Part shown: in pieces, positions 22,293-39,459 of the stretch
Layout: every line of letters begins with the position of its first letter
How positions within the stretch are numbered: the stretch's first letter is position 1
From: Deltaproteobacteria bacterium
GTDB lineage: Bacteria; Desulfobacterota; Syntrophia; Syntrophales; UBA2192
Assembly (NCBI GenBank): GCA_012728915.1
Contig: JAAYEC010000003.1
Span: forward strand, 62,001 to 126,000
Direction: 5' to 3'
Length of the DNA: 64,000 nt
Translations under genes and position numbers: made by a program
The notes under the pieces: generated by a model
Databases searched by the model: none
Seen by the model: the letters and a program-made list of their open reading frames with translations, nothing else
Told to the model about the DNA's origin: nothing

Positions 22293-22796
22293 CTAGACTC
22301 TCTCCACCTGGAACCCCTGCATCTCGATGGCCACGGCGCGCTGGAGGATCTCGATGGTGATCACGAAGAGATCTTTCCGGGGGTCGGCCTTCACGACCAT
22401 CCCCTCGATGTCCCTGAAGGGCCCGTCGAGGATCCGGGCCCGTTCCCCGGCTTTGGGGTAGCGGTAGTGCTGGATTTCCACTTTCGAGTCCACGAGGCGC
22501 CGGATGGCCTCGATTTTCTCATCGGGAACGGGGATGGGGATGTTGCCCCGGGCGGTCCCCAGGATCTTGACGACCCCGGGCGTTTTCAGGATGTCGAGCC
22601 GCTCCTGGTTGTCGGCCCTCATCATTTCAACGAACAGGTAGCCCGGGAACATGGGAAGCTGGATTCTCTTCCGGCGATCCTTTCTGCGGCTCCAGGTCTC
22701 GATCTTCGGCAGGAAGGCGTGAATTGACTTCAGCGTGAGGCCGTCGCAGGCCTTGCTCTCGTGGCGGCTTCTCGTGTGAACGGCGTACCAGGGCAT
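22293..22796 (-). CDS. NusG-family antiterminator paralogue (RfaH/UpxY/LoaP type)
   Basis: A 167-residue protein with the NusG N-terminal opening WYAVHTRSRHE, LPMFPGYLFVEM in the middle, and a KOW segment ILDGPFRDIEGMVVKADPRKD at the C-terminus. Genuine nusG lies with secE and rplK, which are absent here, so this is a specialised paralogue that probably acts on long operons such as surface polysaccharide clusters. Sugar-nucleotide genes lie 1.5 kb away on the other strand, which fits but is not proof. Confidence 0.82.
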   Translation of the reverse strand: MPWYAVHTRSRHESKACDGLTLKSIHAFLPKIETWSRRKDRRKRIQLPMFPGYLFVEMMRADNQERLDILKTPGVVKILGTARGNIPIPVPDEKIEAIRRLVDSKVEIQHYRYPKAGERARILDGPFRDIEGMVVKADPRKDLFVITIEILQRAVAIEMQGFQVERV

Positions 22797-22901: not shown

Positions 22902-23984
22902 TCATCCGGTGATGAACCGGGCGTCGACGATGATGTCCCCGCTCCGGCGGGAAACGCGCCGGATGTCCAGGGGGACGGCCTGATCAACGGTTTTCACGGC
23001 CAGCTCTCCGATGGCGTCCAGCCCCTTTCCGAAGATCTTCGGGGCGGAAATGACGATGAGCCGGTCGGCCAGCCGCTCCCGGATGAAGGAGGTCAGGACC
23101 CCGGCACCCCCTTCCACGAGAAGCGACGAGATCTCCCGCCTGCCCAGTTCCTCGAGAACCGCAGCGAGATCGACCTGCCTTCTCCCTGCGACCCGGACCT
23201 CGATCCCGGCGTCCGCGAGCAGCGCTCTCTTCTTCCGGTCATGCCCGGCGGTCGTGAACACCAGGGTCCTTGCCCGCTGCTGCCCCTGAAACACGCGGGC
23301 CCGGGGACCGATCTCCAACCTCGAGTCCACGACGACGCGCAGGGGGTCCCGGCCCCTGACGAGGCGGCAGGTGAGTTCCGGGTCGTCCTTGACGATCGTG
23401 CCCGAGCCCACGAGGATGGCGTCGTGCAGGCTTCGCAGGCGGTGGGCGAAGACCCGCGAGGGCTCGGAGCTGATCCACCGGGAGTGCCCTGTGGAGGTCG
23501 CGATCTTGCCGTCGATGGACTGGGCGAATTTGAGCGTGACAAAGGGGACCCGGGTCCGGATGTACTTGAAGAAGACCTCGTTGATCTCCCGGCACTGCGC
23601 GTCGAGGACGCCGGAGCGGGTCTCGATCCCGTGCCGCTTCAGCGTTGCGAGCCCCCGCCCCGAGACAAGCGGATTGGGGTCGATCGTCCCGATGACGACG
23701 CGGGCCGGCTTTTCCTGCACCAGCCGCTCGATGCAGGGCGGGGTTTTGCCGTGGTGGGTGCAGGGTTCCAGGGTGACGTAGACCGTTGCACCGCGGACCG
23801 GCTCCGTCGCGCTCTCGATGGCGTCGATCTCGGCGTGATTTTCCCCGCGGCGCCGGTGGAACCCTTTCCCGATGATGCGCCCGTCCTTGACGATCACCGC
23901 CCCCACGAGGGGGTTGGGCGAGGCCCAGGGCGCTCCCCGTCTCGCCAGGGCGAGGGCCGTTCTCATGTAGCTCTCGTCGGTCAT
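22902..23984 (-). CDS. ribD: Bifunctional riboflavin enzyme RibD (deaminase/reductase)
   Basis: The 360-residue protein catalyses the second and third steps of riboflavin synthesis. The N-terminal deaminase has the zinc site HAEIDAIE and PCTHHGKTPPC; the C-terminal reductase has DGKIATSTGHSRWIS and LLVEGGAGVLTSF. The ATG at 23984 follows GGGAG. It stands alone, without ribE, ribBA or ribH and without an FMN riboswitch upstream. Confidence 0.95.
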   Translation of the reverse strand: MTDESYMRTALALARRGAPWASPNPLVGAVIVKDGRIIGKGFHRRRGENHAEIDAIESATEPVRGATVYVTLEPCTHHGKTPPCIERLVQEKPARVVIGTIDPNPLVSGRGLATLKRHGIETRSGVLDAQCREINEVFFKYIRTRVPFVTLKFAQSIDGKIATSTGHSRWISSEPSRVFAHRLRSLHDAILVGSGTIVKDDPELTCRLVRGRDPLRVVVDSRLEIGPRARVFQGQQRARTLVFTTAGHDRKKRALLADAGIEVRVAGRRQVDLAAVLEELGRREISSLLVEGGAGVLTSFIRERLADRLIVISAPKIFGKGLDAIGELAVKTVDQAVPLDIRRVSRRSGDIIVDARFITG

Positions 23985-24072
23985 GCCCGGCTCCCGTTGT
24001 CGTTCGGCCCGCGATCTTCCTTTGTGGAATGACCCTTGCAATATCATGCGTCTTCGAGTGGCACGGCTTCCT

Positions 24073-24101
24073 ACTATACAAAAGCTGGGTCTCCTGCACA
24101 A
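24073..24101 (-). promoter_or_regulatory. Possible ribD promoter
   Basis: On the minus strand TATAGT (5 of 6) lies 17 bases after TTGTGC, which keeps only the TTG of the -35. The leader would be about 80 bases. Confidence 0.35.
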
Positions 24102-24282
24102 GATCAAATCGACTTCCGCGCCGGGCGCCGGGTCTCCGTCATGCGCAGGAGCCCATGACCGGCGGGCCGCTTTTATGCGATCAGTGCCCGAAGGGGGCCG
24201 CGGCTGTTTTCCGCTACCGCCCTGCGGTCCGGATGTGGTATATAACCGCAGCTTTCGACCCCGCGGCAGAATGGAGGATTTC

Positions 24283-25014
24283 ATGAAAGGCATCGTTCTC
24301 GCAGGGGGGCTCGGGACCCGCATGCACCCCCTGACCAAGGTCACCAACAAGCATCTTCTTCCCCTCTACCGTGAGCCGATGATCTACTACCCCATCCGCA
24401 CCCTCGTCAACGCGGGCATCGACGAGATCCTGATCGTCACGGGCGGCAACAACGCCGGGGATTTCTTGAAGCTGCTGGGAAACGGAAAGGACTTCGGCTT
24501 GAAGCATCTCAACTACACCTACCAGGAAGGGGAAGGCGGGATCGCCGCCGCCCTCGACCTGGCGGCGTACTTCGCCGACGGGGACAGGATCGCCGTCGTC
24601 CTGGGCGACAACATCATCGAAAAGAACATCCGACGGGCCGTCGAGGCCTTCAAGAAACAGCCGCGCGGCGCGAAGATCCTGCTCAAGGAGGTCCCGGACC
24701 CCCAGCGGTTCGGCGTGCCAGCCTTCGAGGGGGACCGCATCGTTCGCATCGACGAGAAGCCGAAGCAGCCGGCGTCGAACTACGCCGTCATCGGCATCTA
24801 CCTGTACGACGCCACGGTCTTCGACGTGATCAAGACACTCAAGCCCTCGAACCGGGGCGAGCTGGAGATCACGGACGTGAACAACCATTACATCCGCGAG
24901 GGTACGATCACCTGGGATGTGCTCGACGGGTGGTGGTCCGATGCCGGCACGTTCGATTCGCTGATGTACGCGGGCAACATGGTGGCCAGGACGGGCGCGA
25001 ACAAATTGGACTAG
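24283..25014 (+). CDS. Sugar-1-phosphate nucleotidylyltransferase (RmlA-like)
   Basis: The 243-residue enzyme has the nucleotidyltransferase signature KGIVLAGGLGTRMHPLT at the very start, VVLGDNII with the metal-binding Asp, and FGVPAF and DEKPKQPASNYAVIGIYLYD further on, as in glucose-1-phosphate thymidylyltransferases. It is shorter than RmlA of E. coli because the C-terminal allosteric part is reduced. The ATG at 24283 has GGAGG 6 bases away. It pairs with a cupin epimerase-like gene, so it probably makes an activated dTDP-sugar. Confidence 0.88.
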   Translation: MKGIVLAGGLGTRMHPLTKVTNKHLLPLYREPMIYYPIRTLVNAGIDEILIVTGGNNAGDFLKLLGNGKDFGLKHLNYTYQEGEGGIAAALDLAAYFADGDRIAVVLGDNIIEKNIRRAVEAFKKQPRGAKILLKEVPDPQRFGVPAFEGDRIVRIDEKPKQPASNYAVIGIYLYDATVFDVIKTLKPSNRGELEITDVNNHYIREGTITWDVLDGWWSDAGTFDSLMYAGNMVARTGANKLD

Positions 25015-25026
25015 GCGGCGGGTCAA

Positions 25027-25048
25027 CAGGCAAAGGACGAAGGGCAAG
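25027..25048. repeat. Short word-repeat patch (copy K)
   Basis: The words AGGCAAAGGACGAAGGGCAA between the two sugar-nucleotide genes resemble the GGGCAAA class. It is short, without an obvious opposing arm. Confidence 0.35.
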
Positions 25049-25107
25049 ATGGATTATAGAAGGATGCATCCCCGGGGCCCCATGAACGGTGCCTCACCGG
25101 AGGCGAC

Positions 25108-25563
25108 ATGATCGACGGCGTGAAGATCAAGAAATTGAAGGTGATCCCCGACGAGCGCGGGCGGCTGATGGAGATGCTGAGGGCCGACGATGAGCTGTTC
25201 GAATCGTTCGGTCAGGTCTACATGACAACGGCCTACCCGGGGGTGGTCAAGGGGTGGCACTACCACAAGCGGCAGTCCGACAACATGACCGTCGTCAAGG
25301 GGATGATGAAGATCGTGCTCTATGACAGCCGCAAGGGCTCGCCGACCGAAGGCGAGGTGAACGAATTCTTCGCGGGCGAGCACAATCCGGTCCTGCTCCA
25401 CATTCCCCCCCTGGTCTTCCACGGCTTCAAGTGCATCTCCGGCGAGGAGGCCCTCGTGATCAACGTCCCCACGGAGGTGTATCGCTACGACGATCCCGAC
25501 GAGTTCCGGGTCCATCCCCACGACAACGATATTCCCTATGACTGGGATCGCAGGGACGGGTGA
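25108..25563 (+). CDS. dTDP-4-dehydrorhamnose 3,5-epimerase-family cupin protein
   Basis: This 151-residue cupin resembles RmlC-type proteins: IPDERGRLMEMLR, then VKGWHYHKRQSDNMTVVKG with the conserved His, IPPLVFHGF and an acidic C-terminus. It is shorter than classical RmlC (about 180), like the group acting as sugar 3,4-isomerases or 3,5-epimerases on dTDP-sugars. It lies 93 bases after the thymidylyltransferase-like gene with GGAGG before its ATG. The exact sugar is unknown. Confidence 0.78.
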   Translation: MIDGVKIKKLKVIPDERGRLMEMLRADDELFESFGQVYMTTAYPGVVKGWHYHKRQSDNMTVVKGMMKIVLYDSRKGSPTEGEVNEFFAGEHNPVLLHIPPLVFHGFKCISGEEALVINVPTEVYRYDDPDEFRVHPHDNDIPYDWDRRDG

Positions 25564-25641: not shown

Positions 25642-25707
25642 AACACCCCGACATCGTGTGGTTTGTCACCGGCTCCGACAGGGGCTCATGAATATACGGA
25701 ACAGAGA

Positions 25708-26481
25708 ATGGGCATATTCTGGGGCGTTATTTCGTTTGTCCTCGGCGCGGTGATCGGCAGTTTCCTCAACGTCTGCATCTGGCGGATCCCCGAGGAGAAA
25801 TCCATCGTGTTCCCCTCCTCCCGCTGTCCGAAGTGCGGCGCACCCATCCGTCCCTGGGACAATATCCCCATCCTGAGCTGGTTTCTCCTGCGCGGCCGGT
25901 GCCGCGACTGCGGCGGGGCCATCTCGCCCCGCTACCCCCTGGTCGAACTGCTGACGGGCCTGCTCTCCCTGGCCCTGTGCCGGCTGTACGGTCCGGGCCT
26001 GCCGTACCTGGCCGCCTTCCTTTTCGTCTCCGTCCTTGTCGTGATCAGCTTCATCGACCTGGACCACCAGATCATCCCGGACGTGATCTCGCTGCCGGGA
26101 ATCCCGGTGTTCTTCCTGCTGGCGGTCTTCGTCATGGGTGTCGGCTTCTGGGACTCGCTCCTCGGCGTTCTCGCCGGGGGCGGGTTTCTCTACCTGATCG
26201 CCGTGGGGTATGAGCTCCTGACGAAGCGGGAGGGGATGGGGGGAGGCGACATCAAGCTGCTGGCCATGATCGGGGCCTTCCTGGGGTGGCAATCGCTGTT
26301 TTTCGTGGTGTTCATGAGCTCCATCCTCGGGGCACTCGTGGGGGCCGTGCTCATCGCGACCCGGGGCAAGGACATGAAGTATGCCGTGCCTTTCGGACCC
26401 TTCCTGTCGGTGGCCGCCGCGATGTATCCCTTTGTCGGCGTCCAGCTGACGCATCTCGTTTTATTCCGGGCGCTTCCCTGA
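25708..26481 (+). CDS. pilD: Prepilin peptidase/N-methyltransferase PilD
   Basis: This 257-residue polytopic membrane enzyme cleaves and N-methylates type IV prepilins. The N-terminal cytoplasmic domain has two CxxC pairs (CPKCGAPIRPWD and CRDCGGAISPRYPLVE). The catalytic aspartates lie in FIDLDHQIIPD and GGGDIKLLAM. The ATG at 25708 fits the family start (IFWGVISFVLGAVIGSFLNVCIWR). It directly precedes the minor-pilin operon, whose products are its substrates, but a 430-base regulatory leader separates them. Confidence 0.96.
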   Translation: MGIFWGVISFVLGAVIGSFLNVCIWRIPEEKSIVFPSSRCPKCGAPIRPWDNIPILSWFLLRGRCRDCGGAISPRYPLVELLTGLLSLALCRLYGPGLPYLAAFLFVSVLVVISFIDLDHQIIPDVISLPGIPVFFLLAVFVMGVGFWDSLLGVLAGGGFLYLIAVGYELLTKREGMGGGDIKLLAMIGAFLGWQSLFFVVFMSSILGALVGAVLIATRGKDMKYAVPFGPFLSVAAAMYPFVGVQLTHLVLFRALP

Positions 26482-26516: not shown

Positions 26517-26544
26517 TCAAGTTTTCCACGCTCCGGGCCGAAAA
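26517..26544 (+). promoter_or_regulatory. Sigma-28 (FliA)-like promoter of the minor-pilin/pilY1 operon
   Basis: CTCAAGTTTT followed by GCCGAAAA fits the flagellar sigma factor pattern TAAAGTTT-N11-GCCGATAA. TCAAGTTT matches 7 of 8 with a 12-base spacer (11 if the -35 is shifted by one), and GCCGAAAA matches 7 of 8. No comparable sigma-70 promoter is seen before the riboswitch. The transcript would start near 26552, about 60 bases before the aptamer. Confidence 0.65.
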
Positions 26545-26610
26545 GGAATTCAGAAGAGTTCCAACCCGCGATCGGGTTGAACGATTCGCAGGTTCCGGTC
26601 GCTCTCATGA

Positions 26611-26702
26611 AACGGCCTGATAAGGGCAAACCATCCGAAAGGGTGGGGCGCAAAATCACTGGCCTACGTCCGATCGAAGGATATGGCGGCAGGATTGCCG
26701 GG
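26611..26702 (+). promoter_or_regulatory. Cyclic-di-GMP-I (GEMM) riboswitch aptamer
   Basis: The sequence has the GEMM-I hallmarks in order: AAGGGCAAACC, stem CCATCC closed by a GAAA tetraloop with GGGTGG, GCGCAAAA, then P3 with a near-canonical 11-base tetraloop receptor (CCTACG opposite TATGG), and the 3' end GGATTGCCG. P1 can form from CGGC (26613-26616) and GCCG (26697-26700). The base matching G20 of the Vibrio Vc2 aptamer is G (26625), which favours c-di-GMP over 3',3'-cGAMP. It lies 212 bases before the fimT start. Confidence 0.9.
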
Positions 26703-26914
26703 CAGGACATCCGATCACGAGCCGAAGCGGGGATCCCCTCCCTGGGCGGACCGCGCTCTCGTCTCCCGTCCCATCTCCTCCCGCCCGGATTCAGCCTCCT
26801 GCCTGGCGGCCCTTCCGTCGCCGGTACGGGCATGCTTCTTGCTGAACCGGAATTGTTCCCGGCAGGACGGGCATGCGCCGGGGCCGGGCATGAGAACCTG
26901 AGGAATCGAGGGAA
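26703..26914 (+). other. Riboswitch expression platform and leader to fimT
   Basis: No gene or T-run terminator is visible in these 212 bases. There is a C-rich, G-poor stretch at about 26752-26792 that could serve as a Rho entry site. The ten-mer ACGGGCATGC occurs twice (26826 and 26867), with a related GGGCATG near 26887. The fimT site GAGGGA could pair with CCCCTCCC (26734-26741). Translational or Rho-dependent control is therefore more likely than an intrinsic terminator. Confidence 0.5.
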
Positions 26915-27439
26915 ATGAACATCACGGGTCACGTACAAAGCGGCAGCGTTCAGAAGCGGGCTCCTGCCGGGCGGTCTGCCGCCGGCTTTTCCCTGGTGGA
27001 GCTTCTGATCACGCTGGTCCTGTTGGGCATCGTGCTGGCCATCGCCGTCCCGTCCTACCGGGGGTGGGTGGACAACTCGAACCTGAAGGGTGCGGGAAGG
27101 ATGATTTCGTCCGATTTCTACGACACGCGCGCCCGGGCCATGGCGGAAAACCGGGCGTACACCATCACCTACAGCCCGGAGCCGGCCAACACCTGCCGGA
27201 TCCAGGCCGCGGCGGTCAACGATCTTGCCGCCGTCGACGAGACGAAGACCTTCGGAGAGTACGGGACGGTCCGGATGACGGCCGTCAACGGAGGCGCAGC
27301 GGCTGTGACAGTCACGATCCAGCCCCGCGGGTCGGCCGCTCCGGCCGCGACGATCGGCCTCACCAACGTGCGTAACTCGACAGGCACGGTTACCGTGCTG
27401 ATGACAGGAAGGGCCCATGTCACGTACAGCATGCAATGA
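26915..27439 (+). CDS. fimT: Type IV minor pilin FimT/GspH-like
   Basis: A 174-residue pseudopilin with a type III signal: a long basic leader ending G, then FSLVELLITLVLLGIVLAIAVPSYRGW with Glu at +5. The GspH/FimT-type C-terminal domain follows. Minor pilins prime pilus assembly and form the tip complex with PilY1. The start has GAGGG at a normal distance and overlaps the next gene by 23 bases. It is the first gene behind the c-di-GMP riboswitch. Confidence 0.85.
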   Translation: MNITGHVQSGSVQKRAPAGRSAAGFSLVELLITLVLLGIVLAIAVPSYRGWVDNSNLKGAGRMISSDFYDTRARAMAENRAYTITYSPEPANTCRIQAAAVNDLAAVDETKTFGEYGTVRMTAVNGGAAAVTVTIQPRGSAAPAATIGLTNVRNSTGTVTVLMTGRAHVTYSMQ

Positions 27440-27875
27440 CCGCGGGATCACCATCGTCGAGGTGCTCATCACGCTGTTTCTCACGGCCGTGGGCATCATG
27501 GCCCTTCTGTCCATGCAGCCCACGTCGTGGAGCGCGGCGGGGCGATCCGATTTCATGGGCCGGGCCGCCGGCATCCTCCAGAGCGAGCTGGAGCGGAGCG
27601 AGCTGTGGGTCATGAATCCGAACAACGCCTTCGCGACGAACTGTGACCCCTCCGGCCGCAATCTTTATGTCGGGGCGTGCTCACGCACCGTCAATGCCAG
27701 CAGCCAGTCGGTACAGCAGACGGGCGACGTGGCGTATACCGTTGCCACGACGGTCACCCCGCTGGCCGGTGCGACGAACGCCTGGACGGTGAGGATCCAG
27801 GTGAGCTGGCCCGGCAACACGCGGGGAATCACGGAGAGCGCCATCGTTTCGAGACAGGAGTATTTCAGGCAATGA
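27417..27875 (+). CDS. pilV: Type IV minor pilin PilV-like
   Basis: A 152-residue pilin-like protein with the short leader MSRTACNDRG cut before ITIVEVLITLFLTAVGIMALL, Glu at +5. PilV proteins are minor pilins incorporated near the tip. The assignment rests on the N-terminus, size and position between fimT and pilW. A Cys pair (NCDPSG, GACS) in the C-terminal half could form a disulfide. It overlaps the next gene by 4 bases (ATGA). Confidence 0.82.
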   Translation: MSRTACNDRGITIVEVLITLFLTAVGIMALLSMQPTSWSAAGRSDFMGRAAGILQSELERSELWVMNPNNAFATNCDPSGRNLYVGACSRTVNASSQSVQQTGDVAYTVATTVTPLAGATNAWTVRIQVSWPGNTRGITESAIVSRQEYFRQ

Positions 27876-28600
27876 GGGATCCGCTGAACGATTCGAGAGG
27901 GTTCACGCTCACCGAGCTCGTCATGGCCGTCGCCGTCGGGCTCGTCCTGCTTGCGGCTGTTTCGACGGCCATGGTGTCGGGGCAGCGCTCTGCCACGGGG
28001 ATCGAGCGGAAGGTGACCACGAACCAGGACGCCAGGGCCGCCCTGGAGATCATGGCCGCGGAGATCCGCATGGCCTCCTTCAACTCCACCTTGGAGCCGA
28101 ACCTCTGGCGCAACCCGGGGGACTGCACCATATCGGGAAACCAGAACTGGCGCGGCATCCAGGAGGCCACGGCCACGTCGATCACCGTCGAGATGGACAT
28201 CGAGTCGCCCCCCACCAAGGTCTGCGGGGACACGTCCGGCGAGATCATCCGCTACGAGGCCTCCGGCCAGGGCATCACCCGGCACGTCATCACCTGCGTG
28301 TCCGGCGTGCGCAACCTGGATTCCCAGCCGTTCCTGGGTCCCATTGCCGGGCATCCCGAGGTCCGGACCGTCGAATGCGCCAACTGTGTCATCAACCACG
28401 CGCTACCCGTTTTCCGGTATTTCGACGGCACGGGCGCCGAAATTCTCCACGCCAATCTCCCCAACGACATCCCGAGGATCCGGCGCATCGAGATCGCGCT
28501 GCTCGTCCGCTCGGCCGATATCGACCCGAACACCGGTCAGCAGCGGCAGATGGCCTATTCGACCAGCGTCATTCCTCGAAACCACGGAATTCACTTCTGA
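27872..28600 (+). CDS. pilW: Type IV minor pilin PilW-like (copy 1)
   Basis: A 242-residue protein cleaved after SRG, with the N-terminal helix FTLTELVMAVAVGLVLLAAVSTAMVSGQ and Glu at +5. PilW-like features follow (RAALEIMAAEIRMASF, later PRIRRIEIALLVRSAD). A close paralogue lies at 38727-39443, sharing the helix, GQRSA-GIER and the C-terminal STSV-P-NHG end. It is translationally coupled to pilV. Confidence 0.88.
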   Translation: MRDPLNDSRGFTLTELVMAVAVGLVLLAAVSTAMVSGQRSATGIERKVTTNQDARAALEIMAAEIRMASFNSTLEPNLWRNPGDCTISGNQNWRGIQEATATSITVEMDIESPPTKVCGDTSGEIIRYEASGQGITRHVITCVSGVRNLDSQPFLGPIAGHPEVRTVECANCVINHALPVFRYFDGTGAEILHANLPNDIPRIRRIEIALLVRSADIDPNTGQQRQMAYSTSVIPRNHGIHF

Positions 28601-28610
28601 GCAAGGACGA

Positions 28611-29090
28611 ATGCGAATGGCACACCACCGTGAACAGAAAGGCTTTGCACTCGTGGCCGCGCTGCTGGCCAACCTGATCCTCCTGGCCGTGGGGATCGTC
28701 GCCCTCAACCTCTCCACGGGGGACATCCGGTTCAGCATGCGCTCCGTGGGCGACAAGAAGGCCGTAAACGCCGCCGAGGCGGGTCTGCACTGGCTGACCG
28801 TCAATTTCAATCCCGCAGACCTCGCGTCCGTCACCGTGACCAACCAACAGGTGGACATCGGGGGGGACCCGAACACGCAGTACACGATCCAGGAAGTCGG
28901 GGACCCCCCCGCAGGGTCGGGCCCCGCCCAGCTTCCGCTCCCGGGCTTCTCCATCGGCGGCTCCCAGACCTGGGGGCAGGCACGGTACCGGGCGGTGGTC
29001 ACGGGCAGGAACACGGCCTACAACTCGACCATGACGATCGAAGCGGGCCTGGGACACGGCCCCATAGAGATGGGGACGATGTCCCGATAG
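28611..29090 (+). CDS. pilX: Type IV minor pilin PilX-like (copy 1)
   Basis: A 159-residue protein cleaved after QKG, with FALVAALLANLILLAVGIVALNLSTGD. The residue at +5 is Ala rather than Glu, as in GspK/PilX proteins that cap the pseudopilin tip. AAEAGLHWLTVNFNP is the conserved PilX motif. Two start codons six bases apart (28611, 28617) are possible; AAGGA is nearer the first. A paralogue lies at 39460-39930. Confidence 0.85.
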   Translation: MRMAHHREQKGFALVAALLANLILLAVGIVALNLSTGDIRFSMRSVGDKKAVNAAEAGLHWLTVNFNPADLASVTVTNQQVDIGGDPNTQYTIQEVGDPPAGSGPAQLPLPGFSIGGSQTWGQARYRAVVTGRNTAYNSTMTIEAGLGHGPIEMGTMSR

Positions 29091-29101
29091 GAGAAACGAC
29101 C

Positions 29102-32100
29102 ATGAAGACGCTGCGCACCATCCTCGCCGCGATGTGGATCTTCCTGTTCTGCGGGGCGGGGGTCTCCCTCGCCCAGACCTGCACGACCGACGAAGACTGC
29201 TCGGAGACGGGGCTCTTCACCAGCGTGGCCCCCGAGGCCATGATCCTCCTGGACATGTCGGGAAGCATGAAGTGGAACCCCCCGGGCGACGTCTTCCAAT
29301 GCCCCGGCGCGGACTCCCTCTGCTATTACAAACCCGCCGGCGGCAACTGCGCCACCATCCAGAAAAACCCGGCCCTCTACAGCGACTACAAGACGACGTA
29401 TTACCCTCCCTGGACGCAGCAGTGCGGCAATGCCGTTCTCAACCGCTACAGCAACGAGACCTGCTCGGGCCCCTTTTACATGACAAAGACGGAGATGCCC
29501 GGCTACTCCACCGACTGCGCCCGCTACCTCATCGCAAGAGAGGTCATCCGGAAGCTCCTGGACGACAACAAGGACGGCAAGATCTTCACCGACGACGACA
29601 CGAGCCTCAACATCCGGATGGGGTTTGCCAAGTTCCAGGCAAGCACCTACCAGGAGTGGAAGCCCATCGGGACGTCCTACCGGAACATCTACTGCGGCGC
29701 CCCCTTCGGTTCCCTCACCGCCTGCACGGCGTCGAACCAGTACAATTACGGCGACTATAAGTGCATCCTGTCGTCGATGTGGACGGACTCGGCCGTTGTC
29801 GGGGCGACGCCCCTGGCGCTTGCCCTGGAGAGCGTGAAAACGACCCTGGACACCGCGAAGAACAAAGACGCCTACAAAAACTGCCGGCAGCGCTTCGTGA
29901 TCCTCCTCTCGGACGGGGCCGACACCATGGCCTGCGGCGCGGCGAACGGCGACAGGGACAGCACCCAGTACAAGCGCAGGCGGGCCTCCGTGGCCCGGGC
30001 CAAGGCACTGGCCGATGCAGGCTACAAGATCTTCGTCATCGGCTTCGGCGCCAACATGCCGGACATCGAGAAGAACACCCTGAACTGGATGGCCTACTAC
30101 GGGGGAACGGACAACCCGCTCGTGGCCAACAGCGGCGACAAGACGGCCCTCGACGTCTCGGCCTTCGAGGCCGATCCCTGCGCCGCGTCCGCCACGACGG
30201 GGACCTGCGACGGGACGAGCCTCCAGTGCTTTGCCGCGTCCAACGACCCCGGGAACACGCCGCTTTCCGGCTATGCCTTCATCGCCGGCAACGCCACGGA
30301 GCTCGAGGCGGGACTGAGGGAGGCGCTCAACTATATCCGCGAGGCCAACTACGCCTTTTCTCAGTCCTCGGTGGCCTCGTCACGCATCGCCGACGAGAAC
30401 TTCCTCTATGAGGCGTCCTTCCAGCCCGTCAACAACGACCCCATGTGGCTCGGGCACCTTCGCAAGTACCAGATCCTGAGCGACGGGACCGTCGGGGGCG
30501 CGATCTGGGACGCCGGCAAGCTCCTGCAGGAGCGCGACCCGGACACAAGGGTCATGAAGACCTACAAGGGTGGCGCCCTCGTCGATTTTCTGACATCCAA
30601 CATCACCGCCGCGGACCTGGGCGTCGAGAACGATACCCGGCGCAACGAGGTCGTGGGATACGTCCGGGGCGAGCCAACCTACAACAAGGACAACTGGAAA
30701 CTGGGCGACATCTTCCGGGCCAACCCCGTGACGGTGGGGACGCCGTCTCACTACTACAGGGACATCAACGACGGCGCCAACGCCTTCGCCACGCACCGTG
30801 CAAGCCATGTGAGGTCTTCCGCCAACGGGCTGCGGATCGTGCTGTCCGGCGCCAACGACGGCCAGCTGCACGCCTTCAGGACCTCCGATGGCTCCGAGGC
30901 CTGGAGCTTCATCCCGCCGAGCGTGGTCCCCAAGCTTCGGCAGATCGCGCATGCCTCGCACCCGGCCGGCATGCCCCACGTCTACTTCGTGGACGGGCCC
31001 ATCTCGGTGGCCGATGCCTGGCTCGGCACCGGCGAGGGGAAGACGAAGTCGGCGTCGGACTGGAAGACCCTGCTCGTGTTCGGCCTGGGCCGCGGCGCGG
31101 ACCCGAACCTCTGGAGCTCGTCGCCGGACTGCCTGAGCGACTTCAGCCTGGTCTACGACGCGTCGCGCCCCCACTACTGCGGCTATTACGCCCTCGACAT
31201 CACCGACACGCTCAACCCGGCGTACAAGTGGCGGATCACCCCGTCGAGCGCCCAGGCCCCCTACCTGGGAGACCCCTACAGCAAGATGTCTATCGGCCGC
31301 GTGAAGGTGGGCGGAAACGAAAAATGGGTAGGGTTCATGGGCGGCGGTCACAACTGGGCCGCCTGCAACCCCTACGACGGCGTCGGTACGGACTGCGACA
31401 AGCGCGGAAAGGGCTTCTTCGTGATCGACCTGTCGAACGGCAGCATCCTCTGGAGCTACACGAGAGCGGACAACCCCACGGACCTGAACTATGCCATGCC
31501 CGCGGCTCCCGCCGCCGTGGACAGCGATCTCGACGGGTTCGTCGACACGGTCTACATCGGCGACCTGAACGGGCAGATGTGGCGGTTCCGGTTCTGCTCG
31601 GCCTCCGACGGCGACGCCTGCGGCACGGCGAACTGGACCGGCAGCCGCCTGTTCCAACCCAGCGGGCTCAACCCGAGCCCCGGGCCGACCTTCGCCGCGC
31701 CGACGGTGGCCAAGGATGCCACGGGCAACCTCTGGGTCTACTGGGGGACAGGCGACAAGACGGAGCCCATCGTCGTGGGGACGACCGTGGACCGATTCTT
31801 CGCCGTCAAGGATTCCGACCTGACGAGCACCTGGTCGGGCAGCACCCTCGATAACATCACGGGTGCGCAGAGCCGATACACGGACAACGCGGGCAAGCAC
31901 GGCTGGTACATGAACCTGAGCGGTTCAGGCGAGAAAGTGCTTGGCGAGGCGACCGTGTTCGGCGGCAGCGTCTACTTCACGACCTACATGCCGGGGGGAG
32001 TCGGAGTCACCGACCCCTGCAACGCCGCCGGAACGGCGAAGCTCTACGGGGTGGCCTACATAGAAGGGGCAGGTTCCCTGACGGGCAACGCCCGGAGCAT

Positions 32101-32290
32101 CACCCTGGGCGTGGGGATCCCCACGGCCCCCACGCTCTCGCTCAACCCCTACAGCCCCAACCCGGACCTCTACGTGACGGTGAGCGGGGGATCGGGCACG
32201 GGCTCCACGACGATGCGGGCGCCCGTCAACCCGAGCGGGGCGAGCAACCGTACCAACATCCTCCACTGGCGCGACCGCAGGGTGCAGTAG
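29102..32290 (+). CDS. pilY1: PilY1-family pilus tip adhesin, copy 1
   Basis: This 1062-residue secreted protein has a signal peptide ending near residue 24 (VSLAQ). An N-terminal von Willebrand A domain carries the metal site DMSGSM (Asp51, Ser53, Ser55), and an EF-hand-like loop DDNKDGKIFTDD lies inside it. The C-terminal half is the PilC/PilY1 beta-propeller: SGANDGQLHAFRTSDG, then the calcium loop DSDLDGFVD with YIGDLNGQMWRF. Copy 1 alone has a Cys-rich insert after the metal site (CPGADSLCYY to ETCSGPF). PilY1 forms the tip with minor pilins and acts in adhesion, twitching and surface sensing. Confidence 0.93.
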   Translation: MKTLRTILAAMWIFLFCGAGVSLAQTCTTDEDCSETGLFTSVAPEAMILLDMSGSMKWNPPGDVFQCPGADSLCYYKPAGGNCATIQKNPALYSDYKTTYYPPWTQQCGNAVLNRYSNETCSGPFYMTKTEMPGYSTDCARYLIAREVIRKLLDDNKDGKIFTDDDTSLNIRMGFAKFQASTYQEWKPIGTSYRNIYCGAPFGSLTACTASNQYNYGDYKCILSSMWTDSAVVGATPLALALESVKTTLDTAKNKDAYKNCRQRFVILLSDGADTMACGAANGDRDSTQYKRRRASVARAKALADAGYKIFVIGFGANMPDIEKNTLNWMAYYGGTDNPLVANSGDKTALDVSAFEADPCAASATTGTCDGTSLQCFAASNDPGNTPLSGYAFIAGNATELEAGLREALNYIREANYAFSQSSVASSRIADENFLYEASFQPVNNDPMWLGHLRKYQILSDGTVGGAIWDAGKLLQERDPDTRVMKTYKGGALVDFLTSNITAADLGVENDTRRNEVVGYVRGEPTYNKDNWKLGDIFRANPVTVGTPSHYYRDINDGANAFATHRASHVRSSANGLRIVLSGANDGQLHAFRTSDGSEAWSFIPPSVVPKLRQIAHASHPAGMPHVYFVDGPISVADAWLGTGEGKTKSASDWKTLLVFGLGRGADPNLWSSSPDCLSDFSLVYDASRPHYCGYYALDITDTLNPAYKWRITPSSAQAPYLGDPYSKMSIGRVKVGGNEKWVGFMGGGHNWAACNPYDGVGTDCDKRGKGFFVIDLSNGSILWSYTRADNPTDLNYAMPAAPAAVDSDLDGFVDTVYIGDLNGQMWRFRFCSASDGDACGTANWTGSRLFQPSGLNPSPGPTFAAPTVAKDATGNLWVYWGTGDKTEPIVVGTTVDRFFAVKDSDLTSTWSGSTLDNITGAQSRYTDNAGKHGWYMNLSGSGEKVLGEATVFGGSVYFTTYMPGGVGVTDPCNAAGTAKLYGVAYIEGAGSLTGNARSITLGVGIPTAPTLSLNPYSPNPDLYVTVSGGSGTGSTTMRAPVNPSGASNRTNILHWRDRRVQ

Positions 32291-32392
32291 CGGATGCGGG
32301 AAACCGGCCGCGGGCCGGCGAATGGAAGGAGGGGCCGGAAGGGCCCGCGACGGAACCGGAAACGTTCACAGAGAGCAAAGAGGTCGGCAGCC

Positions 32393-35300
32393 ATGAAGAA
32401 GAAAACGGTCCCTCTCCTTGCATTTTGTGCCGCGATCGCAATGTCCCTCGGGACGGCCACGCACGGCCGTGCCGACGAGACGGGCCTGTTCACCTCCATC
32501 GCCCCCGACGCCATGATCGTGCTCGACCTCTCGGGGAGCATGAGGTGGAATCCGCCGGGGGACCACAACGCGTACAATTCCCCCATCAACGAGTACAGCA
32601 ACCCCGCCTGCGAGGGGCCCTTCTACAACAACCAGTCGCGGCCGGGCTATACGACCTACTGCTCGCGCTTCGAGATCGCCCGCAAGACGCTGTTCGACAT
32701 CCTCGACGACAACCACAGCGGGACGATCAACAGCCAGGACGAGACGAGCCTCAACATCCGCATCGGCCTCGGGAAGTTCCAGGGAAGCACCTACGCGAAA
32801 TTGCGCGACATCGGGACGAAGTACTCCCTGGTCTACTGCGGGAGCAACACGTCCTGCACCGTGAACCAGAGCTCGGGAGATTACTCCAGCATCAACTACT
32901 GGATGACCTATTCCAACGTGGTCGGGGCCACCCCGCTCGTAAGCGGGCTCGCGGGCGTCAAGGCCTACCTCGACGGCCACAAGGCGAACGACCCGTACAA
33001 GAATTGCCGGCAGAAGTTCGTCATCCTCGTCTCCGACGGGGCCGACACGATGTACTGCGGCGGCACGGGCTACGACGACCAGACGGACCAGTACAAGCGC
33101 AGGCGGGAATCGGTGCTGGCGGCCAAGGCCCTCGCCGACGCGGGCTACAAGGTCTTCGTTATCGGCATGGGCAGCAACATGCCCGATCACCTCAAGCGGA
33201 CCCTGAACTGGATGGCCTACTACGGGGGGACCGACAACCCCCTCGTCGAGAACGAGGGGGACGCGACGGCCTTCGACCCAAGCGCGGTGAGCAGCTGCGG
33301 GAGCTCCTCCACGACGGGCCCGGGATGCGGGACGACGGACGAGTGCTACGCCGTGTCGAACGACCCGGGAACGCTGGAGCTGTCGGGCTACGCCTTCCTG
33401 GCCAACAACGCCACGGAGCTCGAGGCGGCCTTCCGGCAGGCCATCAGTGTGATCCGCGAGGCGACCTACTCCTTCTCCCAGGCCTCGGTGGCCTCGTCTC
33501 GGCTCATCGACGAGAATTTCATCTACGAGGCGTCCTTCCAGCCCATCAACGGCGACCCCTTCTGGCTGGGGCACCTGACGAAGTACCAGATCAACAGCAA
33601 CGGGACGATCGGAGCCGCGCTCTGGGACGCCGGCCAGGTGCTCCAGGGGACGGATGCCGCCTCGCGGACGATCTACACGTACAAGTCGGGGGCCTTGACG
33701 GCTTTCAACGCGACCAACATCACCCCGGCCGACCTGGGCGTGCCGAGCACCACGAGGCGCAACGAGGTCGTGGGATTCATCCGGGGAGAGGCGGCGTACA
33801 ACAAGGACAACTGGAAGCTCGGCGACACCTTCCGCTCGAACCCCGTGACGGTCGGCACCCCCTCGGCCTGGTTCAAGGACGCCCGCGACTCGGCAGGCGC
33901 CTTCGCCTCCCACCGGACGGCGAATCCACGCACAACGGCCAACGGGAAGCGGATCGTCGTCGCCGGCGCCAACGACGGCCAGCTCCATGCCTTCCGGACG
34001 GACAACACCCCGCCGCCCTCGGGCAGCGGCGGCATGGAGGTCTGGAGCTTCATCCCGCCCAACCTGCTGCCGAAACTCAAGGATATCGCCCACAAGTCCC
34101 ATCCCACGGGGCTGACCCACCAGTACTTCGTGGACGGCCCCATCTCGGTGGCCGACGTCTGGGTGGGGACGGGCGACGGCACCGCGAAGTCCGCTTCGGA
34201 CTGGAAGACGCTCCTGATCTTCGGCGAGGGCCGCGGAGGGACGAGCACCCTCTGGAGTTCCTCGGCCTCCTGTGACTCGGGATTCAAGAACATCTACTCG
34301 AGCGTTTACCGCAACTACTGCGGCTACCACGCCCTGGACATCACGAACACCTACAGCCCCGCCTACCGGTGGCGGATCAGTCCATCGGCCGGCCAGGCGC
34401 CCTACCTCGGGGACCCGTGGAGCAAGATGATGGTGCACCGCGTGAAGGTGAACGGCTCCGAGAAGTGGGTCGGATTCATCGGGGGCGGCAACAACCTGTC
34501 GAGCTGTACGGGCGGCGGCTGCGACCTCCGGGGCAAAGGGTTCTTCGTCGTGAACCTCAGCGACGGCTCCGTCCTGTGGAGCTACACGCAGGCCGACAAC
34601 GGCTCCATGAACTACGCCCTGCCGGGCACGGCGGCCGTCGTGGACTCGGACAGCGACGGGTTCGTCGATCTGGCCTACATCGGGGACCTGGGCGGCAACA
34701 TCTGGCGGATGAAATTCTGCTCGGCCGCCGACGGGCCCTCCTGCACGACAGGCGACTGGGGCGGCTCAATGCTCTTTGCCCGCGACAGCGGAACCGGGCC
34801 CGTCTACGACGCCCCCGCGGTGGCCAAGGACGCGTACGGCAACCTCTGGGTCTACTGGGGGACGGGGGACAAGGCCGAGCCGATCGTCGTGGGTTCCGGC
34901 ACGGAGCGTTTCTATGCCGTCAAGGATGTGGACAGGACAAGCACCCGGCAGGCAGGCGACCTGGAGAACATCACCGGTACGACCTACACGGACAATGCCT
35001 CGAAGAGCGGCTGGTACATCAACCTCACCGGGGCGGGAGAAAAGTGCCTCTCCGAGCCCTCCGTATTTGCAGGGTACCTGTACTTCACCACCTACACGCC
35101 GGCGGGCAGCGGCGGCGACCCCTGCGACCAGGCCGGATCGGCCCGGCTCTACGCCGTCTCCTACATCGAGGGCGCCGGGTCGCTTACGGGCAACGCGAGG
35201 AGCATGACCCTCGGCGTGGGGATTCCCACGGCGCCCGTGCTCTCCATCAACCCGCACAGCAGCACGCCGGACCTGTATGTCACCCTGAGCGGCGGGGCCG

Positions 35301-35395
35301 GAACGGGGGCCACCACCATGCGCGCCAACGTGAACCCCCCGTCCATCGCGAACCGGACCAACCTGATCCACTGGCGGGACGCCCGGTTCCAGTGA
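32393..35395 (+). CDS. pilY1: PilY1-family pilus tip adhesin, copy 2
   Basis: A 1000-residue paralogue of the preceding gene with the same order: signal peptide (ending near HGRA, residue 27), VWA metal site DLSGSM (Asp45, Ser47, Ser49), a calcium-type loop DDNHSGTINSQD, and the propeller with AGANDGQLHAFRTD, DSDSDGFVD and YIGDLGGNIWRM. It lacks the Cys-rich insert of copy 1. The ATG at 32393 gives an uninterrupted signal peptide and has AGAGGT upstream. The gap to copy 1 is 102 bases without a terminator. Many blocks are shared with copies 1 and 3, so this is a tandem duplication followed by divergence. Confidence 0.93.
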   Translation: MKKKTVPLLAFCAAIAMSLGTATHGRADETGLFTSIAPDAMIVLDLSGSMRWNPPGDHNAYNSPINEYSNPACEGPFYNNQSRPGYTTYCSRFEIARKTLFDILDDNHSGTINSQDETSLNIRIGLGKFQGSTYAKLRDIGTKYSLVYCGSNTSCTVNQSSGDYSSINYWMTYSNVVGATPLVSGLAGVKAYLDGHKANDPYKNCRQKFVILVSDGADTMYCGGTGYDDQTDQYKRRRESVLAAKALADAGYKVFVIGMGSNMPDHLKRTLNWMAYYGGTDNPLVENEGDATAFDPSAVSSCGSSSTTGPGCGTTDECYAVSNDPGTLELSGYAFLANNATELEAAFRQAISVIREATYSFSQASVASSRLIDENFIYEASFQPINGDPFWLGHLTKYQINSNGTIGAALWDAGQVLQGTDAASRTIYTYKSGALTAFNATNITPADLGVPSTTRRNEVVGFIRGEAAYNKDNWKLGDTFRSNPVTVGTPSAWFKDARDSAGAFASHRTANPRTTANGKRIVVAGANDGQLHAFRTDNTPPPSGSGGMEVWSFIPPNLLPKLKDIAHKSHPTGLTHQYFVDGPISVADVWVGTGDGTAKSASDWKTLLIFGEGRGGTSTLWSSSASCDSGFKNIYSSVYRNYCGYHALDITNTYSPAYRWRISPSAGQAPYLGDPWSKMMVHRVKVNGSEKWVGFIGGGNNLSSCTGGGCDLRGKGFFVVNLSDGSVLWSYTQADNGSMNYALPGTAAVVDSDSDGFVDLAYIGDLGGNIWRMKFCSAADGPSCTTGDWGGSMLFARDSGTGPVYDAPAVAKDAYGNLWVYWGTGDKAEPIVVGSGTERFYAVKDVDRTSTRQAGDLENITGTTYTDNASKSGWYINLTGAGEKCLSEPSVFAGYLYFTTYTPAGSGGDPCDQAGSARLYAVSYIEGAGSLTGNARSMTLGVGIPTAPVLSINPHSSTPDLYVTLSGGAGTGATTMRANVNPPSIANRTNLIHWRDARFQ

Positions 35396-35427
35396 GCGGG
35401 GCCCGGCCGCAGGCCCCGAAAAACCGC

Positions 35428-35456
35428 TTGACCCGCACAGCCTGATGCGGTAAATT
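35428..35456 (+). promoter_or_regulatory. Possible internal promoter before the third pilY1
   Basis: TTGACC, a 17-base spacer and TAAATT (4 of 6) lie between copies 2 and 3. A GC-rich hairpin (CGGGGCCC with GGGCCCCG, about 35474-35506) follows without a T-run. This would let copy 3, pilW2 and pilX2 be expressed apart from the riboswitch-led transcript. Confidence 0.4.
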
Positions 35457-35646
35457 CCGTCCATCCCGGGCGGGGCCCCGGAAAAGGGCCCCGTCCCGTA
35501 CCCTCCTTCCAGCCGTATTCTACCCTTCGGATTGCATGGGCGGCGAGAACGGGCCGTCAACCGGCATGCGGGGATGTGCGTCCAGGTTTCACTCCGGGGG
35601 ACCTCCGCGCTCGAGCGTCGGGCGCGTCGCGATGGAGGTTTCCGCC

Positions 35647-38600
35647 ATGACCCTCTTCGCCTTTGTCCGGCGTGCCGCCGTCCTGGGCATCCTCGTTTTC
35701 TCCGGCGCGGCCGCGTTCGCTGAAACCGCCGACCAGGCGCTTTTTACCGCCGTTTCCCCCGATGTCCTGATCGTCCTCGACCTCTCGGACAGCATGCGCC
35801 GGAATCCGAAAGGAGAGGCCGACGGTCTCGGGGAGCCGCTGCGGCGCTTCGGAAACGAGGCGTGCTCGGGGGAAACCTTCCACGACACGCCCCGGCCGGG
35901 CTTCGCGACGGACTGCGCCCGGTACCTCGTCGCCAGGCGCGTCCTGTACGATCTTTTCGACAACAACCGGGACGGGGTGATCGACCGCCGGGACGAGGCC
36001 GGCCTCGGCGTCCGTCTCGGGTTCTGGGCGTTCAGCGCGGGAATCCGGAGGCTGCGGGACATCGGGCAGCCCTTTGCGCAGAGCTGGTGCGGGGCAGACT
36101 CCTGCCCAGGGGCCGATGCGTCGACGGCCGAGGAACGCACGATCCTCTACTGGACCGACAGGAACCGGGAGCGGCAGCGCGTCCGCGGCGGCTCGAACCT
36201 GGCCGCGTGCCTGGAGGCCGCAAAGCCCTACCTGGACAGCCACAGGCAGGCCGATCCCTACAGGAACTGCCGGAAGAAGTTCGTCATCCTCGTCACCGAC
36301 GGCCACGATACCCTCGCCTGCGGCGGCACCGGTGACGGCAGCCGGCCCGATCAGTACAAGCGGCGGCGCGCCTCGGTGGCGAAGGTGAAGGCCCTCTGGG
36401 ACGCGGGGTACCGGGTCTTCGTGATCGGGCTCGGGGACGGGATGCCCGCCTATGTACGGAACACGCTCAACTGGATGGCCTTCTACGGGGGGACGGAGAA
36501 CCCCTCCGCAGTCCGGAGGGGCGACCCGCAGGCCCTGCGCATCGATCAGATCACCGACGAGCCCTGCGCCGAGTCGGCGACGACGGGCTCATGCAGCGGG
36601 GCAAGCGAGCTCTGCTTCGCCTCCGTCAACGACCCCGGCGCGCTCGAGCTTGACGGGTATGCCTTCCTCTCCGCGAAGGGGGAACCATTCGAGGCTGCCC
36701 TGAGGGCGGCGATGAGCTCCATCCGCGACGCCGCCTACTCCTTCAGCGCGCCGTCGGTGCCCGCGGCCAGGACGGCGGAGCACAACCACCTGTTCGCGGC
36801 CTCCTTCCAGCCCGTGGCCGGGGACCCCTTGTGGCGGGGAACACTCCGGAAATACGCGATCCTGTCAGACGAATCGGTGGGCGGCATTCTGGCCGATGCA
36901 GGGGCGGCCCTCCAGGCCAGGGCCGCGAAAGACCGGAAAATCCTGACGGTCAAGGGCGGGGCCGTGGTGCCGTTTTCTGCGCAGACCCTCTCTGCGGAGG
37001 ATCTCGGGGTGAGCGACGGGAGGCGGCGCGACGAGGTGGTCGGCTACATCCGCGGCGAGGCGGCATACAACCCCGATCGGGATGCCCGAGGCAACGTCTG
37101 GAAACTGGGCGACATCTTCCACTCGAACCCCGTCACGGTGGGCACGCCCCCGGCGCACTTCGCCGATCCCCGGGACCGGGGCAGGTCCTTCGATGCCTAC
37201 CGCGCAGCAAACCGGCGGAGCTCGGACAACGGACGGCGGATCGTCGTGGCGGGCGCAAACGACGGCCAGCTCCACGCGTTCCGGACCTCGGACCTGGCCG
37301 AGGTCTGGAGCTTCATCCCCCCGAACCTCCTGCCCCGGCTCAAGGAGCTTGCCCACGGGGAGCACCCGACAGCCCGGACACACCGGTTCTATGTCGACGG
37401 GCCGGTTACCGTGGCGGACGTCTGGACGGGAAAGGGAGACGGGAAAATCAAGTCCTCCGGCGAATGGAAAACCCTGCTGGTCGTCGGACTGGGGAGGGGG
37501 GGCGACCGGACGCTCTGGAGCGCTTCGCCGTCCTGCGAATCGGGCTTCAGCGGCAGCTATCTCCCGGGCGGCGAGTTCCCCGTGTATTGCGGCTACCACG
37601 CCCTGGACGTGACCGACACGCTCAATCCGGGGCTTTCCTGGCGGATCCGTCCCGCGCCGTCCCAGGCGCCGTACCTGGGCGATCCCTGGAGCAGGATGGT
37701 GATCCGCAGGGTCCGGATCGGAGGACAGGAGAAATGGGTCGGCTTCATCGGCGGCGGACACCGGATATCCTCCTGTGCGGGGGCGGCGGACTGCGACGCG
37801 CGGGGGAAGGGGTTTTTTGCCGTCGACCTCGCGACGGGGCACATCCTCTGGGATTTCACGCGGGGCTCCCCGGGAGGCGGCCTTATGGGGCACGCCATCC
37901 CGGCGAGCGCGGCCGTGATCGATTCGGACATGGACGGGTTTGCCGACAGGGCCTACATCGGGGACCTGGGGGGAAACCTCTGGCGTTTCACGTTCTGCAG
38001 GGCCTCCGACGGGGAAAGCTGTACGACGGCCGACTGGAAAGGGTCCCTCTTTTTCCGGCGCGACGGCGTGACGGGGCCGGTCTACTTCGCCCCCGCCGTC
38101 ACGAGGGACGCCGCCGGCAGCCTCTGGGTCTACTGGGGCACCGGAGAGCTGCTCGAGCCCCTGGCCCGGGGGCCTGGCAGGGACGGGTTTTACGGCGTGC
38201 GGGACACCGGGGCGGCCTCGCCCCGGACGGCCGCGAACCTGCAAAACATCAGTGGCGCCGCGCAGCGTTTCACCGAGCCGGACACCCGGGACGGGTGGTT
38301 CATCCTGTTCGACGGAAAGGGGGAGAAGCTCCTTGCCGCCCCGACCGTCTTCGGCGGCGTCGCGTATTTTACGACCTACACGCCGGAGGGCGGGTCGGGA
38401 GACCCCTGCGAGCAGACAGGCCTCTCAAGGCTGTACGCCGTCTCCTACATCGACGGGACGGCAGCCTTCGCGGGAGGCGGGCGCTGCACGGTCCTCGGCA
38501 GGGGGATCGCGTCGGAGCCGATGGTATCCGCCGGGGTGGAACCGGGCAAGGGGGGCATGTTCGGATGGGTCAGCGGCGGGGCCGGCAGCTCCGCCGCTCC

Positions 38601-38679
38601 ATGGAGGGCCCCGGCCGTGCTGAAGTGGCCTGGAAACCGGACACACCTCCTTCAATGGCGCGACGTGCGCGTCCGGTAG
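35647..38679 (+). CDS. pilY1: PilY1-family pilus tip adhesin, copy 3
   Basis: A 1010-residue paralogue, more diverged than copies 1 and 2. The ATG at 35647 is chosen because GGAGG lies 8 bases upstream and a clean signal peptide follows, ending near AAAFA (residue 25). The VWA metal site is DLSDSM (Asp45, Ser47, Ser49). The loop DNNRDGVIDRRDE is a closer match to an EF-hand than in copy 2. The propeller keeps AGANDGQLHAFRTSD, DSDMDGFAD and YIGDLGGNLWRF. The final segment lacks the LTGNARS block of the other two. It begins the second half of the locus, with its own pilW and pilX. Confidence 0.93.
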   Translation: MTLFAFVRRAAVLGILVFSGAAAFAETADQALFTAVSPDVLIVLDLSDSMRRNPKGEADGLGEPLRRFGNEACSGETFHDTPRPGFATDCARYLVARRVLYDLFDNNRDGVIDRRDEAGLGVRLGFWAFSAGIRRLRDIGQPFAQSWCGADSCPGADASTAEERTILYWTDRNRERQRVRGGSNLAACLEAAKPYLDSHRQADPYRNCRKKFVILVTDGHDTLACGGTGDGSRPDQYKRRRASVAKVKALWDAGYRVFVIGLGDGMPAYVRNTLNWMAFYGGTENPSAVRRGDPQALRIDQITDEPCAESATTGSCSGASELCFASVNDPGALELDGYAFLSAKGEPFEAALRAAMSSIRDAAYSFSAPSVPAARTAEHNHLFAASFQPVAGDPLWRGTLRKYAILSDESVGGILADAGAALQARAAKDRKILTVKGGAVVPFSAQTLSAEDLGVSDGRRRDEVVGYIRGEAAYNPDRDARGNVWKLGDIFHSNPVTVGTPPAHFADPRDRGRSFDAYRAANRRSSDNGRRIVVAGANDGQLHAFRTSDLAEVWSFIPPNLLPRLKELAHGEHPTARTHRFYVDGPVTVADVWTGKGDGKIKSSGEWKTLLVVGLGRGGDRTLWSASPSCESGFSGSYLPGGEFPVYCGYHALDVTDTLNPGLSWRIRPAPSQAPYLGDPWSRMVIRRVRIGGQEKWVGFIGGGHRISSCAGAADCDARGKGFFAVDLATGHILWDFTRGSPGGGLMGHAIPASAAVIDSDMDGFADRAYIGDLGGNLWRFTFCRASDGESCTTADWKGSLFFRRDGVTGPVYFAPAVTRDAAGSLWVYWGTGELLEPLARGPGRDGFYGVRDTGAASPRTAANLQNISGAAQRFTEPDTRDGWFILFDGKGEKLLAAPTVFGGVAYFTTYTPEGGSGDPCEQTGLSRLYAVSYIDGTAAFAGGGRCTVLGRGIASEPMVSAGVEPGKGGMFGWVSGGAGSSAAPWRAPAVLKWPGNRTHLLQWRDVRVR

Positions 38680-38726
38680 GCGACGGGTTCGGGGGGAAGG
38701 CTCCAGGCGGAGGAAGGAGAGGTCCA

Positions 38727-39443: not shown

Positions 39444-39459
39444 AAGGGGGAACGGAACC

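Follow-up and report, generated by a model that had tools for sequence, protein, structure and literature searches.

What decides whether a pilus operon is expressed when a riboswitch stands in front of it? In a Syntrophales metagenome-assembled genome (MAG; 2.79 Mb, 81 contigs), a stretch of 64,000 nucleotides (the window) carries a GEMM-I (c-di-GMP-I) riboswitch in the 5' leader of minor-pilin and PilY1 genes, and the question extends to what starts the leader transcript and whether the riboswitch is its only control. The Syntrophales play a key part in syntrophic degradation in anaerobic digesters, and to our knowledge the control of their attachment has been little studied. Here we describe the leader, its target operon and its counterparts in related genomes (Table 1). 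The reading that we consider probable is that a c-di-GMP riboswitch in a sigma28-started leader gates read-through into the PilY1 operon, with a sigma54-type promoter serving as a bypass.

The earlier note on this DNA had recognised a GEMM-I riboswitch and named an Infernal search with the Rfam model RF01051 as the check. A cmscan search of the whole window bears the identification out, with a match to the full model (positions 1-87) at 26615-26702 on the + strand, scoring 74.5 bits (E 9.2e-13) against a gathering score of 35. By direct reading, the P1 stem pairs GCCUG (26615-26619) with CGGGC (26699-26703), so that the extent originally given, 26611-26702, is off by no more than 4 nt, and P1 ends 1 nt past 26702. 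The GAAA tetraloop (26637-26640) and its receptor (CCUACG...UAUGG, 26663-26668 and 26682-26686) are present as claimed, as is the G at the ligand-specificity position (26625, model column 11, which we take to correspond to G20 of Vc2). The match is not due to chance, because the same covariance-model search of the whole genome gives only four matches, with scores of 68.8-74.5 bits. The aptamer is almost unchanged in sequence across seven same-genus orthologues, and the riboswitch itself is ordinary and real. The three further riboswitches of the genome stand before genes for one secreted beta-propeller (SBBP) protein and two secreted fn3 proteins, and each of the four targets appears to be a protein of the cell surface or a secreted one.

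The genes that follow the aptamer form a PilY1/type IV pilus minor-pilin operon, with PF05567 matches next to prepilin-type proteins. Its description in the earlier note as a minor-pilin and pilY1 operon holds but is incomplete, as the operon has PilY1 in triplicate and PilW/PilX-like proteins in two pairs. The three tandem PilY1 copies are 47-59% identical among themselves, copy a matches the solved PilY1 structure 3hx6 (E 2.7e-18), and the named closest relatives of the PilY1 proteins are found in metagenome-assembled Syntrophales and Syntrophaceae genomes (59-86% identity). PilY1 copy number appears to vary, with three in tandem here (29102-38679), four matches in a row in one relative (G005), and two or three in other relatives. 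The order pilD-riboswitch-FimT-PilV is kept in 6/6 same-genus relatives, where PilW, PilX and PilY1 copies then follow wherever the contig is long enough, and in more distant families GEMM-I also occurs upstream of related minor-pilin operons. In a family-f16 operon, a DsbC-like disulfide isomerase gene (L078:8000-8890, - strand) lies between GEMM-I and the minor pilins, and perhaps serves PilY1 folding. Elsewhere in the window, a NusG-like gene (22293-22796, - strand; NusG N-terminal and KOW domains) is a candidate for a specialised antiterminator, near rfbA/rfbC-like polysaccharide genes (23983-25563).

Table 1. Features of the pil locus, in window coordinates.
Feature	Position	Strand	Evidence
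Prepilin peptidase (PilD-like), directly upstream gene	25663-26481	+	Pfam A24_N_bact 125 bits, Peptidase_A24 84 bits
Sigma28/FliA-like promoter TCAAGTTT-N12-GCCGAAAA, 70 nt upstream of aptamer	26517-26544	+	Score 12.95
Short 5'-leader hairpin (AACCCG / CGGGTT)	26563-26578	+	Direct reading; stem letters largely kept in same-genus orthologues
GEMM-I (c-di-GMP-I) aptamer, P1 closing at 26703	26615-26703	+	RF01051 74.5 bits
C-rich, G-poor (rut-like) tract containing the conserved anti-aptamer strand	26763-26822	+	(C-G)/60 = 0.33
Sigma54-like promoter GGGCATGCTTCTTGCT, between aptamer and fimT	26828-26843	+	0/300 shuffles reach its score
FimT/GspH-like minor pilin	26915-27439	+	Pfam N_methyl 28.7 bits; GspH and pilin models sub-cut-off
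PilV-like minor pilin	27417-27875	+	N_methyl; TIGR02523 PilV sub-cut-off
PilW-like minor pilin 1	27872-28600	+	N_methyl; TIGR02532 above cut-off; 56% identity to second copy
PilX-like minor pilin 1	28611-29090	+	Position; 44% identity to second copy; no Pfam match
PilY1 copy a (von Willebrand A-like DxSxS motif and beta-propeller)	29102-32290	+	PF05567 54.6 bits
PilY1 copy b	32294-35395	+	PF05567 54.1 bits; 59% identity to copy a
PilY1 copy c	35536-38679	+	PF05567 56.6 bits; 47-50% identity to copies a and b
PilW-like minor pilin 2 (start codon uncertain)	38676-39443	+	56% identity to PilW 1
PilX-like minor pilin 2 (start codon uncertain)	39433-39930	+	44% identity to PilX 1

All four aptamers of the genome have G at the specificity base, and none has the A that marks GEMM-Ib; an A20G change turns a GEMM-Ib riboswitch c-di-GMP-selective (PMC6456294). 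The genome has seven GGDEF matches, of which six are readable and all six are GHxxGD; no Hypr (Ser-type) GGDEF was found among these six domains, the seventh match being partial and the assembly having gaps. Because all four aptamers are G-type and the six readable GGDEF domains are all GHxxGD, our best inference is that the ligand is c-di-GMP. The alternative is that the riboswitch senses 3',3'-cGAMP, and some G20 aptamers also bind cGAMP in vitro. In Geobacter, GEMM-Ib (cGAMP) riboswitches with the same aptamer fold occur upstream of pilus assembly and cytochrome genes (PMC6456294), a likeness in targets that is set against the G bases and the GGDEF domains as read here, so that sensing of cGAMP appears very improbable. 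The c-di-GMP-type base reported in the earlier note is borne out; the organism is not Geobacter-like and belongs to the Syntrophales, and nothing points to cGAMP. Elsewhere, A occupies the specificity base in 4 of 86 GEMM-I aptamers (own genome and relatives), which are candidates for the cGAMP type (L054 at G004:C148:27238-27329, - strand, and loci in G037, G057 and G070); one of the four sits behind a strong sigma28-like site.

As to the start of the leader transcript, no sigma70-like promoter was found. Scoring of the sigma28/FliA consensus TAAAGTTT-N11-GCCGATAA over the 160 nt that precede the aptamer gave a site whose score has p<0.005 against its own shuffles and is reached by 0.15% of random 160-nt windows of the same genome. 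With TCAA, GCCGAAAA and N12, the pil site shows two departures from the consensus and is a weaker one. It is kept in six orthologues at the same distance, and the alignment of orthologous leaders has a conserved island, CTCAAGTTT...CCGAAAA, 70 nt before the aptamer. The genome encodes FliA (256.7 bits against a cut-off of 189.6) and flagellins; the sigma28-like site before FlgM is TAAAGACG-N12-GCCGATCT, and that before the flagellin genes is TCAAGTTT-N12-TTCGATAG, of which TCAAGTTT-N12 is common to the pil site.

Such sites recur at other GEMM-I loci. All four aptamers of the genome have one, two of these being near-perfect, and sigma28-like sites at p<=0.01 (own shuffles) precede 39/85 GEMM-I aptamers, where about one is expected. 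By family, they are found at 28/31 GEMM-I loci in family f1 and 11/54 elsewhere; the lowest of the 39 scores is reached by 0.6% of random own-genome windows and by fewer than 2% of ORF upstream regions. In family f16, the orthologous operons carry strong sigma28 sites that are spaced from the aptamer as in the pil leader (68-70 nt). The occurrence of the sites follows that of the sigma factor, with a sigma28-like site before GEMM-I in 15/22 genomes with FliA and 1/13 without (Fisher p 0.001; p 0.03 outside family f1), p-values which overstate the case since relatives are not independent data points. One genome (G072) has no FliA above the cut-off, yet has a sigma28-GEMM-I locus; in another without FliA (G077), the corresponding site has a spacer of 16 nt in place of 11, which looks like decay of the site.

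Across the phylum, an exact sigma28 pattern matched 12/395 genomes, and four of the eight resulting loci tested are GEMM-I; so strict a pattern shows the presence of the coupling in the phylum, and its frequency is not readable from it. Outside the class, four more GEMM-I leaders carry the sigma28 motif. One lies directly upstream of the FliD flagellar cap gene (L140:81-1355, - strand; Pfam FliD_N, FliD_C). The other three (L136, 1551-1637, + strand; L137, 1431-1518, - strand; L139, 1429-1518, - strand) belong to one family of another class and lead genes whose products resemble Flp/Tad-type pilus proteins, which suggests that this logic was recruited independently for another kind of pilus.

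These data bear on a simpler explanation, in which an ordinary c-di-GMP riboswitch is transcribed from a housekeeping promoter, and the sigma28- and sigma54-like sites reflect chance or general conservation. It draws on the departure of the pil site from consensus and on the shared ancestry of the MAG relatives, which makes conservation alone a weak argument; as the search for a sigma70-like promoter also came up empty, the leader may start at a promoter of another kind. We nevertheless consider it rather unlikely: the sigma28-like sites turn up in several families, where they differ in sequence and in distance, the background being below 2%, they associate with FliA, and the sigma54-like site (below) is confined to one operon type. 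A FliA-type promoter remains our preferred reading of the upstream site.

No intrinsic U-run terminator follows the aptamer, the one candidate (near 26814-26830) having been rejected because its stem is weak and no good U-run goes with it. A conserved anti-aptamer strand (26783-26788 and 26799-26803), about 80-100 nt downstream, complements the 3' half of the aptamer; the CCGGGC/GCCCGG pairing is invariant, but compensatory changes that would support the helix are nearly lacking (1/61 pairs). Folding predictions for most orthologues show a jump in the cost of retaining the aptamer once this strand has been transcribed. The (C-G)/60 value of the surrounding tract exceeds the 99th percentile of the window (0.22), and the tract is present in 7/7 orthologues. 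Together, the anti-aptamer strand and the C-rich, G-poor tract suggest, as a working hypothesis, Rho-dependent control. ViennaRNA predictions gave no consistent difference between aptamer states in the exposure of the tract, which counts against this platform, or, in the shorter Fn3 and SBBP leaders, in that of the ribosome-binding site (RBS). It could be that the leader masks the RBS and acts as a translational switch rather than by termination; this agrees with the lack of an intrinsic terminator, and Vc2 acts on translation (PMC7371385). The pilin RBS, however, is separated from the aptamer by about 200 nt, with variable sequence in between, and in those Fn3 and SBBP leaders RBS pairing is equal in aptamer-forced and free folds, so that we regard masking as unlikely, albeit the strongest of the alternatives weighed here.

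Between the aptamer and fimT, the sigma54-like site GGGCATgcttcTTGCT (26828-26843) forms a conservation island amid variable sequence, with a GG-N10-GC element and conserved surroundings. In scans of the 330 nt after the aptamer, sites at p<=0.01 were found in 8/9 family-f1 pil leaders and at none of the other loci scanned; in one of the eight (G005b), the top-scoring site is elsewhere and the conserved site is present too. As the block is conserved, it was also considered as the start of a leader peptide (ATG near 26832; relatives read MLLAELKVI). This was rejected, since the ATG is lost in G004c, the frames diverge, and G006a has a stop after ten codons; the sigma54-like reading fits the block better. 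Transcripts from this site would lack the aptamer and so bypass the riboswitch. The earlier note had missed both promoter-like sites, the FliA-type one before the aptamer and the sigma54-like one after it, and its proposal that the tip adhesins are under second-messenger control is, with such a bypass, probably only half the story. RpoN was found in 6/6 same-genus relatives, but neither in the assembly studied here nor in G007. Since hpf, the neighbour of RpoN in a relative, is missing from this assembly as well, while same-genus relatives have both, a gap in the assembly seems more probable than loss of the gene, despite 100% marker completeness.

In the proposed mechanism, a sigma28/FliA-type promoter would start a transcript whose leader carries the GEMM-I riboswitch, and production of the leader would depend on FliA activity, as an indicator of flagellar status. 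Through the competition of aptamer and anti-aptamer strands, c-di-GMP would then decide whether transcription or translation continues, gating read-through into the minor-pilin operon with its three PilY1 tip proteins, while the sigma54-type promoter past the aptamer would supply riboswitch-free transcripts. Because a FliA-type promoter would make the leader and a c-di-GMP riboswitch would gate it, the pil operon would integrate two signals, flagellar status and c-di-GMP.

Parts of this arrangement have precedents. In Clostridioides difficile, c-di-GMP riboswitches are likewise found at motility (flagellar) and type IV pilus operons; there, a riboswitch lies upstream of a sigma-factor operon, whereas here the riboswitch is itself preceded by a sigma28-type site. 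Vibrio cholerae Vc2-tfoY is the precedent for the two-sided layout, as promoters on both sides of its GEMM-I aptamer give riboswitch-containing and riboswitch-free transcripts (PMC7371385); its bypass promoters are VpsR-dependent, while the promoter-like sites here are sigma28-like upstream and sigma54-like downstream, and the target is a pilus operon. The Bdellovibrio FliA attack-phase regulon (consensus TTAAG-N16-CCGATA) shows FliA recruited beyond flagella alongside an abundant c-di-GMP riboswitch RNA, merRNA, which, unlike the leader described here, has no downstream gene and is not listed with a FliA promoter (PMC3627812). Compared with the Geobacter GEMM-Ib leaders, the present locus differs in its G base, in the lack of a Hypr GGDEF among the domains read and hence in its predicted ligand, and also in its FliA-type promoter, the absence of an intrinsic terminator and its PilY1 triplication. 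In open-licence full texts, we found no report of FliA-driven GEMM-I leaders, the Bdellovibrio FliA regulon and merRNA being the nearest precedent, and the stacking of sigma28, riboswitch and sigma54 elements appears unreported there. Riboswitch-led pilus operons are known; what is new is the placement of the riboswitch behind a FliA-type promoter, repeated over a small regulon, together with a probable bypass promoter at the pilus operon.

Normally, c-di-GMP opposes motility and promotes attachment. We see the balance as even on whether GEMM-I riboswitches make up a regulon dedicated to 'sigma28 plus c-di-GMP' in the Syntrophales and also, separately, in other lineages of the Desulfobacterota. 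In such a regulon, surface adhesins, secreted fn3 and beta-propeller proteins, pili and even flagellar genes would be expressed only when FliA is active and then be gated by c-di-GMP, with sigma54 overriding the gate at the PilY1 operon; the choice between swimming and sticking would then be hard-wired as a logic gate. The locus also cautions against taking a riboswitch ahead of an operon as its sole control, since a second promoter can bypass it. If the model is true, attachment genes in these bacteria appear to be wired to both motility and c-di-GMP, and the motile-to-sessile switch would be a two-input RNA gate that can be read and tested from sequence.
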